Below are positions 52,180-54,893 of a DNA stretch of 64,000 bases, piece after piece. Each line of letters starts with the position of its first letter. Within the stretch, counting starts at the first letter, position 1. The DNA comes from Haloferax litoreum. Its GTDB lineage: Archaea; Halobacteriota; Halobacteria; Halobacteriales; Haloferacaceae. The notes under the pieces are model-generated. The model was not told the origin of the DNA. It worked only from the letters and a program-made list of their open reading frames with translations, and made no database searches. Location: positions 1,984,001 to 2,048,000 of the forward strand of contig NZ_WKJO01000001.1 in NCBI RefSeq assembly GCF_009674605.1, given 5' to 3'. The translations under genes and the position numbers were made by a program.

Positions 52180-54444
52180 TTACTGGAAGGTCCGGCCGAC
52201 TTCGGTCTCGCGGTCGCGTTCGACTTCGCTCTTCTGGAAGCGTTCTTCTATCTCCTCGTAGCGGCGGCGAACGTCGTCGGTGACGCTCGCACGAACCTCG
52301 TCGAGGGCGTTCTCGAAGTGTTCCATCGTCACGCGGACGTTGCCGATGCTCTCGTCGATTTCGTCTCTCTTCACGCTCTGGATGAGTTCGCGGGAGGCGT
52401 TCATCGACGCCTCACGGGCGAGTGCTTCGAGGTCGGCACCGACGTAGCCCTCGGTCTTCGATGCGATTTTGTCGAGGTCGACGTCGTCTGCCAGCGGTTT
52501 GCTCCGGGTGTGGACGTCGAGGATGGCGCGGCGGGCGTCCTCGTCCGGCACGGGGACGTGGACGTGGCGGTCCAACCGACCCGGGCGCAAGAGCGCCGAA
52601 TCGATGAGGTCCGGCCGGTTCGTCGTCGCGATGACGACTACGTCTTCGAGTGATTCGAGACCGTCGAGTTCCGTCAGGAGTTGCGAGACGACGCGTTCGG
52701 TGACCCCCGAACTCGACGAGTCGCGGCCACGTTCGGTCGCGATGGAGTCGATTTCGTCGAAGAACACCACCGTCGGGGCGTTCTCGCGGGCCTTCTTGAA
52801 CACTTCGCGGACGCCCTTTTCGGACTCCCCGACGAACTTGTTCAGGAGTTCGGGACCCTTGATGGAGATGAAGTTCGACTCTGCCTCGTTGGCGACAGCC
52901 TTCGCGAGGAGCGTCTTCCCGGTCCCCGGCGGGCCGTACATCAAGACGCCCTTGGCGGCGTCCATGTCCATCTGCTGGAAGACCTCGGGGTATTCGAGTG
53001 GCCACTGGATGGTCTCGCGGAGGCGCTCTTTGGTGCCTTCGAGGCCACCGACGTCGGTCCAGTTGACGTCGGGGACTTCGACGAACACTTCGCGGAGTGC
53101 CGACGGTTCGATGCTCTTTCTGGCCTGCTTGAAGTCGTCCTCGGTGACGCGCAGGTTTTCGAGGACTTCGGCGTCTATCTCCTCGGCCTCTAAGTCGAGT
53201 TGCGGGCGGATGCGGCGCAGTGCGTGCATCGCCGACTCCTTGGCGAGCGATTCGAGGTCGGCACCGACGAACCCGTGGGTGCTGTCGGCGTACGCGTCGA
53301 GGTCGATGCCGTCCGACAGCGGCATGTTCCGCGTGTGGACCTGGAGAATCTCCTTGCGGCCGTCGCGGTCCGGGACGCCAATCTCGATCTCGCGGTCGAA
53401 CCGGCCACCACGGCGCAGTGCGGTGTCGATGGCGTCGACGCGGTTGGTCGCGCCGATGACGACGACCTCGCCGCGTTCGTCCAGCCCGTCCATGAGGGAC
53501 AGGAGCTGGGCGACGACGCGGCGTTCTACGTCACCGCCGGCCTCGCTCCGCTTGGGCGCGATGGAGTCGATTTCGTCGATGAAGACGATGGCGGGCGAAT
53601 TCTCGGTCGCCTCTTCGAAGATTTCGCGGAGTTGCTCTTCGGACTCACCGTAGTACTTCGACATAATCTCCGGGCCGGAGATGGTGTGGAACGAGGCGTC
53701 GATTTCGTTGGCGACGGCCTTCGCGATGAGGGTCTTCCCGGTCCCCGGCGGCCCGTGCAGGAGCACGCCTTTCGGCGGCTCGATGCCGAGGCGCTTGAAC
53801 AGTTCCGGGTGACGCATCGGGAGTTCGATCATCTCCCGAACCTGCTCGAGTTCCTTGTCGAGGCCACCGATGTCTTCGTAGGTCACAGACGGCCCGTCGC
53901 CACCGCTCGGCGCGGTTTCTTTGATTTGCTCGGCGGGTTTCTGGCTGACCTGGAACTCGGTGTTATCGGTGACGACGACGGTCCCAGCGGGGTCGGTGGA
54001 GGCGATTTTGATGGGGACCGACTGGCTGGAGGCGCTCATGAACCCGAAGCCCAGTGGTAACTGGACGTTCTGGCCCGTCGTGACCGGTTGCCCCGAGAGT
54101 TTGTCGCGGATGTAGGTCCCGATGTTGCCACCGATACGGAGGTTCTGGGGGAGCGCGATGGTGACGCGGTTGGCTGGTTTCACGTCCGCTTTTTCGACCT
54201 GTACGCGGTCGTCGATACCGACGCCGGCCTGCTGGCGGAGTCGCCCGTCGATGCGAATGATACCCGTCCCCTGGTCTTCGGGGTACCCAGGCCAGACACG
54301 CGCGATGGCGGTGCCACCGTCGGGGCCTTCGATACGGATGAAGTCGCCGCCTTCGAGTTCGAGTTCCGCGGCGGCGGCACGGTCGATTGCGGCGAGTCCA
54401 CGGCCAGCGTCCTTCTGTTTGAGTGGTTTGACAGTGAGTTTCAT
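52180..54444 (-). CDS. cdc48: Cdc48/VCP-type AAA ATPase
   Basis: The 754-residue protein has the N-terminal double-psi barrel and CDC48_2 domain (1-185) and two AAA modules. Walker A motifs are at 231-238 and 504-511 (GPPGTGKT), Walker B at 286-291 (IVFIDE) and 559-564 (VVFFDE), with arginine-finger regions [11 protein letters not shown] and [10 protein letters not shown]. It unfolds proteins for degradation by the proteasome. The C-terminus ends RTFQ without a clear HbYX motif. Its ATG directly follows the stop of the Hsp20-like gene, so both are under one promoter with a heat-shock-type operator. Confidence 0.96.
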
Positions 54445-54696
54445 TTATTTCTGGATGGTGATGGTGAGCACGCCGTTTCGAACGTCCACATCGACGTCGC
54501 CGCTAGCGGGGAGTTCGAACTCCGTCTCGGTCACGTGGTCGCCGGTGTCGGCGACGACGATGGCCGTCGAACCGACGATATCGACGTCTATCTCGTCTTC
54601 CGAGAGGCCGATATCAGCTGCGATGACCCAGCTGTCTTCGTATTCGTACCGGCGAATGAACCGCTCGTTTCCGCCGGCGAATTGCTGCATGCTCAT
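54445..54696 (-). CDS. Hsp20/alpha-crystallin-like small protein (DUF7127 family)
   Basis: The 83-residue protein is mostly beta and reads like a stripped alpha-crystallin domain: DSWVIAADIGLSEDEIDVDIVGSTAIVVAD, then EFELPASGDVDVDVRNGVLTITI, where the final NGVLTI matches the family's G-x-L motif. I recall haloarchaeal relatives as DUF7127. It is far shorter than usual small heat-shock proteins and lacks the C-terminal I-x-I tail. It is adjacent to cdc48 (TAA then ATG) and its promoter holds CTAAC-N5-GTTAG, which supports a heat-shock role. Confidence 0.82.
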   Translation of the reverse strand: MSMQQFAGGNERFIRRYEYEDSWVIAADIGLSEDEIDVDIVGSTAIVVADTGDHVTETEFELPASGDVDVDVRNGVLTITIQK

Positions 54697-54703
54697 GATA
54701 AGT

Positions 54704-54718
54704 CTAACCCAAGGTTAG
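54704..54718. promoter_or_regulatory. HSR1-type operator CTAAC-CCAAG-GTTAG at the Hsp20-like/cdc48 promoter
   Basis: A perfect palindrome (six paired bases per side, CTAACC and GGTTAG, around CAA) covers the expected transcription start. It matches CTAAC-N5-GTTAG, the site described for the HSR1 repressor in Archaeoglobus fulgidus, where the operon also encodes an Hsp20 and Cdc48. Confidence 0.7.
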
Positions 54719-54726
54719 CGTTTTGA

Positions 54727-54736
54727 ATATATAAAT
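54727..54736 (-). promoter_or_regulatory. TATA box of the Hsp20-like/cdc48 operon
   Basis: The transcribed strand reads ATTTATATAT, in an AT-rich island. About 27 bases downstream lies the operator palindrome, and the start codon follows within a further 10-15 bases, so the leader is very short. Confidence 0.65.
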
Positions 54737-54893
54737 CTTTCTGCGCAAAATCGGGTGACGACGTGGAAATACCCGTTTTTCGGTTGTATTGCGGTTCACA
54801 CTCGTCGCACCTCGGTATGTGATTCGCGGCGGAGTAACGTCAAACTAGTGGCCTCGGAACTCGGCGCTGGAACCCATTTCGACGAGTGGCGTC

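Follow-up and report, generated by a model that had tools for sequence, protein, structure and literature searches.

A perfect palindrome lies across the expected transcription start of the DUF7127-cdc48 operon of Haloferax litoreum, and the question is which protein, if any, recognizes it and in response to which signal. A sequence-only reading had interpreted it as the operator of an Archaeoglobus HSR1-type heat-shock regulator in front of an Hsp20-like/cdc48 operon. The window, i.e. the whole 64,000-nt stretch of DNA analysed, contains the following features of this operon and its promoter:

54704 to 54718, no strand assigned: predicted operator of an HSR1/Phr-type repressor, CTAAC-N5-GTTAG (exact palindrome and class-wide conservation)
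54728 to 54735, minus strand: TATA box TTTATATA, beginning 17 nt ahead of the operator (direct reading; spacing common to relatives)
54703 to 54707, minus strand: expected transcription start region (placed from the TATA position by archaeal promoter geometry)
54781 to 54799, minus strand: second conserved promoter block GTGAACCGCAATACAACCG (kept in relatives, including the genus without operator and regulator)
54445 to 54696, minus strand: DUF7127 (PF23444), 83 aa, predicted to have the alpha-crystallin domain of small heat-shock proteins (Pfam E 5.2e-53; AlphaFold2; fold matches)
52180 to 54444, minus strand: cdc48, AAA+ ATPase, second gene of the operon (Pfam CDC48_N, CDC48_2 and two AAA domains)

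Direct reading bears out the description of the palindrome, CTAACCCAAGGTTAG at 54704-54718, as a perfect CTAAC-CCAAG-GTTAG over the expected start of the operon: the arms match perfectly around a 5-nt spacer, the TATA box is 17 nt away, and by archaeal promoter geometry the element should span approximately -13 to +2. The exact pattern CTAAC-N5-GTTAG has this single copy in the 3.56 Mb genome. Since the reversed control pattern was found four times, the bare pattern is weak evidence and not improbable at such a genome size; the significance of the palindrome comes from its place and its conservation. Fourteen one-mismatch sites inspected in the same genome showed no convincing promoter, and a larger strict regulon in H. 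litoreum was rejected on this basis.

The gene pair was also aptly named, Cdc48 by its Pfam domains and DUF7127 by its predicted small heat-shock protein (sHsp) fold. DUF7127 begins with an ATG at 54696, and cdc48, encoding a 754-aa protein, begins right after the DUF7127 stop with no gap. The Pfam HSP20 model matches DUF7127 weakly (E 0.018, below the Pfam cut-off). Its AlphaFold2 model is an all-beta fold with a mean pLDDT of 81.5, and the PDB fold matches listed for this model are small heat-shock proteins and alpha-crystallins, the best being the ACD of Sulfolobus Hsp20.1 (4rzk, E 3.7e-5). In two genomes of family f11 (loci L285 and L286), reading by eye places the exact operator, itself preceded by an AT-rich and TATA-like segment, immediately ahead of a gene that looks hsp20-like; DUF7127 was not detected in these two genomes by the class-wide search. 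The label 'Hsp20-like' is fair for DUF7127, given the sHsp-type predicted fold and the operator before an hsp20-like gene in this family.

Because the bare pattern is not rare, conservation is decisive for the palindrome. We collected 82 distinct haloarchaeal DUF7127-cdc48 promoters without use of the palindrome. The exact motif occurs in 56 of these promoters, compared with no exact motif in their dinucleotide shuffles. Another 24 carry variants with one- or two-base changes (14 RTTAC-N5-GTTAG, 6 CTTAC-N5-GTTAG and 4 other one-mismatch forms); altogether the operator, exact or variant, is found in 80 promoters and is absent in two. Haloferax and Halobellus relatives have CTAAC-N5-GTTAG at the matching place, and in Halogeometricum limi the left arm is changed, an arm that drifts in several genera. 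An apparent absence of the operator in four genera (g6, g7, g9 and g19) was rejected, as (A/G)TTAC-N5-GTTAG stands at the same place. The search for the palindrome before this gene pair in haloarchaea, proposed with the sequence-only reading, found it kept almost throughout the class, and the refuting outcome named there, a palindrome that close relatives do not share, was not seen. A set of 108 promoters, some of them from loci picked up by the pattern itself, shows little variation in the arms and more at most spacer positions. Of 106 haloarchaeal promoters, 96 have a TATA spacing of 17 nt.

DUF7127 itself is present in 287 of 292 Halobacteria genomes. Among 60 loci drawn from the DUF7127 search, the exact site lies immediately ahead of most copies with cdc48 behind them. 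Six copies without cdc48 in the fetched stretch have no operator, and one locus that stops at a contig end (L080) has a variant operator.

The second conserved block of the promoter has the consensus GTGAACCGCAAyaCaAyC and a TTGCGATT-like partner near 54750-54765, just upstream of the TATA region; genome G066 has an inverted AACCGCAA/TTGCGGTT. The H. litoreum genome holds no further exact copy of the consensus, and the block was rejected as a regulon-wide element for this reason. It is perhaps an activator site.

To find the regulator, we used a Phr sequence that matches PDB 2p4w over all 202 residues. Its best match in H. litoreum shows 56% identity over residues 8-95, the DNA-binding domain (E 6.5e-22; next match E 2.7e-5). 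This candidate, an HSR1/Phr-like winged-helix gene, is located at G000:C1:1791715-1792365 on the minus strand, 246 kb from the operon, which agrees with the earlier suggestion that the regulator gene is now elsewhere. The HSR1-like protein sought in haloarchaea is likewise present across the class: a relative of the full regulator at E <= 1e-15 was found in 290 of 292 Halobacteria genomes. Recognition-helix residues PKAV..HL are common to Phr/HSR1-type proteins and the haloarchaeal regulator. In the regulator tree, a 100/100 branch parts the haloarchaeal proteins from the non-halophile ones and from Phr, SurR and one short paralogue, these last three being long-branched. The H. litoreum regulator groups with HSR1-type proteins, and five paralogues from its own genome are placed outside in this long-branched tree.

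The regulator was not detected at E <= 1e-15 in G066 and G231, both of genus g10, and a Phr search of G066 gave no match. These are the same two genomes whose promoters have no operator. The co-absence is a single event in one genus; it therefore supports the link and is no proof of it. The operator, its place and conservation, the near-universal regulator orthologue and the absence of both in one genus are all read directly from the sequences.

These observations bear on two other accounts of the palindrome. It could be a core-promoter, initiator or RNA-hairpin element and no repressor site, as its overlap with the expected start site and its unremarkable count as a bare pattern would allow. 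However, the 5' arm lies upstream of the start expected from the TATA spacing, so that the transcript would contain only part of an RNA hairpin; most promoters of paralogues of the general transcription factor TFB are without the palindrome, and the genus with no detected regulator lacks it. We consider this account highly improbable. Alternatively, another winged-helix or other DNA-binding protein may bind the palindrome, the presence of the HSR1 orthologue being coincidental. Haloarchaeal genomes do encode many winged-helix proteins (72 HTH_20 matches in H. litoreum), and binding by the HSR1 orthologue is itself a prediction. This alternative is nonetheless improbable: the same operator is physically linked to an HSR1-type gene in non-halophiles, the published HSR1 site is identical to the palindrome pattern, and in genus g10 operator and regulator are missing together.

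As for control of the HSR1 orthologue itself, its own promoter in Haloferax scores like shuffled sequence and has no convincing operator. Of 34 regulator promoters, 19 have their highest-scoring site between -12 and -16 relative to the ATG, and the score exceeds that of shuffled sequence in only part of the set. In the haloarchaeal loci L229, L159, L165, L218 and L231, a degenerate operator (e.g. CTAACCATACGTTAATG) immediately precedes the start codon of the HSR1-like gene. Weak autoregulation through degenerate sites is possible in haloarchaea, with none visible in Haloferax.

Across the phylum, the Phr query found relatives in 287 of 393 genomes. In all 30 non-halophile loci that were read, cdc48 lies downstream of an HSR1-type gene (with a gap of about 500-600 bp in L200 and L201), and the exact operator occurs near the start of the regulator gene in 21. 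For 14 of these 21, the TATA-operator spacing is 16-17 nt, close to the haloarchaeal value. One A. fulgidus-like locus (G391) consists of CTAACATAAAGTTAG, the regulator, a 733-aa Cdc48 and a 174-aa Hsp20, and is presumably the A. fulgidus HSR1-cdc48-hsp20 operon. Six non-halophile loci (L189, L190, L191, L197, L200 and L201) have another copy of the operator behind the first and overlapping with it, CTAAC-N5-GTTAGTAAC-N5-GTTA-like, which suggests possible tandem binding.

The circuit looks inherited, because the non-halophile HSR1-type gene precedes cdc48, mostly with the exact operator in front. The operator-HSR1-cdc48 arrangement is likely ancestral in the phylum. The simplest history looks to be one in which HSR1 relocated on the halobacterial line with the operator retained, and the small sHsp gene likely now stands in place of the HSR1 gene. 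Of the two histories left side by side by the sequence-only reading, conservation is borne out by the promoter counts given above, whereas horizontal transfer is not supported: the haloarchaeal regulators are near-universal and group together, and their tree fits vertical inheritance.

Judging from these comparisons, we think it quite likely that the palindrome serves as operator for the orthologue of Archaeoglobus HSR1 in haloarchaea, a member of the Phr/HSR1 family with an ArsR-like winged helix, which would act as a heat- or folding-stress-relieved repressor of DUF7127-cdc48. Under normal conditions, a dimer of the regulator would occupy about -13 to +2 and keep RNA polymerase from being recruited to this promoter. 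Heat or protein-folding stress would lift the block, allowing transcription of the sHsp-fold DUF7127 gene together with cdc48. The operator position fits a repressor that keeps the transcription machinery off the promoter, the mode of action proposed for Phr and HSR1. Binding by the regulator, repression and heat as the signal are what we infer; heat is chosen because of Phr and HSR1 and because of the published heat induction of H. volcanii tfb2 and of cdc48b and cdc48d in Halobacterium NRC-1 (5.6-fold and 3.4-fold upon heat shock, for genes that may not be orthologues of H. litoreum cdc48).

The HSR1 orthologue might instead bind the site in response to redox or another stress, not heat. The PCY motif ahead of the recognition helix contains a Cys that is conserved in nearly all haloarchaeal proteins and in many of the HSR1-type proteins seen in non-halophiles; in the alignment it corresponds to Cys number two of the SurR CxxC. 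SurR, a redox-type regulator, is assigned to arCOG01684, as are Phr and HSR1. Such a signal is unlikely, however: the haloarchaeal regulator lacks the CxxC pair and has a single Cys in PCY, its predicted targets are proteostasis genes (sHsp, Cdc48, hsp20 and proteasome alpha), and Phr is a heat regulator without this Cys. SurR also differs in its recognition helix (SSTAVAKHL versus PKAV..HL).

The proposed repressor may have further targets. Several genomes have a second exact site, with a TATA box at the same spacing; it precedes TFB genes in families f3, f6 and f10, and in two genomes of genus g64 (L297 and L299) the exact operator with a TATA lies ahead of a proteasome alpha-subunit gene; the genes in both cases were named by reading their sequences. 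We retrieved 50 TFB loci by homology, from 16 genomes; 11 of them have CTWAC-N5-GTWAG upstream, versus 0.01 in shuffles. The scan for this relaxed operator covered about 0.97 Mb of retrieved haloarchaeal DNA, a large part of which was selected for carrying targets. H. litoreum itself has two such TFB genes, L322 (G000:C1:2332237-2333214, minus strand) with CTTACTGATGGTAAG in front and L341 (G000:C2:223753-224685, plus strand) with CTTACAAAAGGTAAG in front, both at the operator's TATA spacing. These two sites are perfect CTTAC-N5-GTAAG palindromes, and since the third base of both arms differs from the cdc48 operator, HSR1 binding is less certain there. In the TFB tree, a 28-member group (98/82) is without the site; all operator-bearing TFBs fall outside it, along with a few siteless ones. 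A new finding from these sequences is that one TFB orthologue group stands out by operator-like palindromes (CTWAC-N5-GTWAG), which keep the TATA spacing of the cdc48 operator.

This suggests that the same repressor may also control a specialised TFB, and the sites could connect an HSR1 repressor with the heat induction that has been reported for a TFB in Haloferax. Work by Lu et al. in 2008 on the hsp5 promoter reportedly concerned TFB-directed heat shock in haloarchaea. The likeness to that system is that a TFB gene, tfb2, is heat-induced (up to eightfold in H. volcanii, in a gene that may not be the operator-bearing TFB described here), and that here one TFB orthologue group carries an HSR1-type site. 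No repressor is described for TFB-directed heat shock in the literature examined. In a broader proposal, whose chances we judge to be evenly balanced, the haloarchaeal HSR1 orthologue would be a master heat-shock repressor over both the sHsp-Cdc48 operon and a dedicated TFB, and derepression of the TFB would spread the response to operator-less promoters. Such a repressor-to-TFB cascade would functionally resemble a bacterial repressor feeding an alternative sigma factor.

The sequence-only reading described the Archaeoglobus circuit correctly. A review (PMC9133787), reporting Rohlin et al. 2005, gives the operator CTAAC-N5-GTTAG near the TATA, and the A. fulgidus-like locus has this operator followed by an HSR1-type gene, cdc48 and hsp20. 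The haloarchaeal system shares with it the operator, an orthologous-type winged-helix protein, and cdc48 and a small heat-shock-type gene as targets. In contrast, the regulator gene is first in the A. fulgidus operon and at a distance in Haloferax, DUF7127 occurs in Haloferax where A. fulgidus has hsp20, and haloarchaeal TFB promoters bear a related site. Unlike A. fulgidus, H. litoreum does not encode its regulator within the operon, and the regulator promoter there is without a convincing site for autoregulation; the haloarchaeal circuit is therefore a variant of the HSR1 circuit, not the same one. Phr of Pyrococcus furiosus (2p4w) is strongly similar in its DNA-binding domain, and also alike in a site that overlaps the transcription start and in a regulon with hsp20 and an AAA+ ATPase, whereas its C-terminal part has diverged. 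The Phr site is 29 bp long.

According to a recent review, no such heat-shock repressor has been found in haloarchaea. The data presented here point, in nearly all genomes of the haloarchaea, to a candidate repressor together with its operator and targets, with the operator kept across the whole class after the regulator gene moved away. An operator site on a TFB gene would join the repressor and TFB models of haloarchaeal heat shock. Haloferax is genetically tractable, and the prediction is thus directly testable; if it is true, haloarchaea would have a heat-shock repressor.
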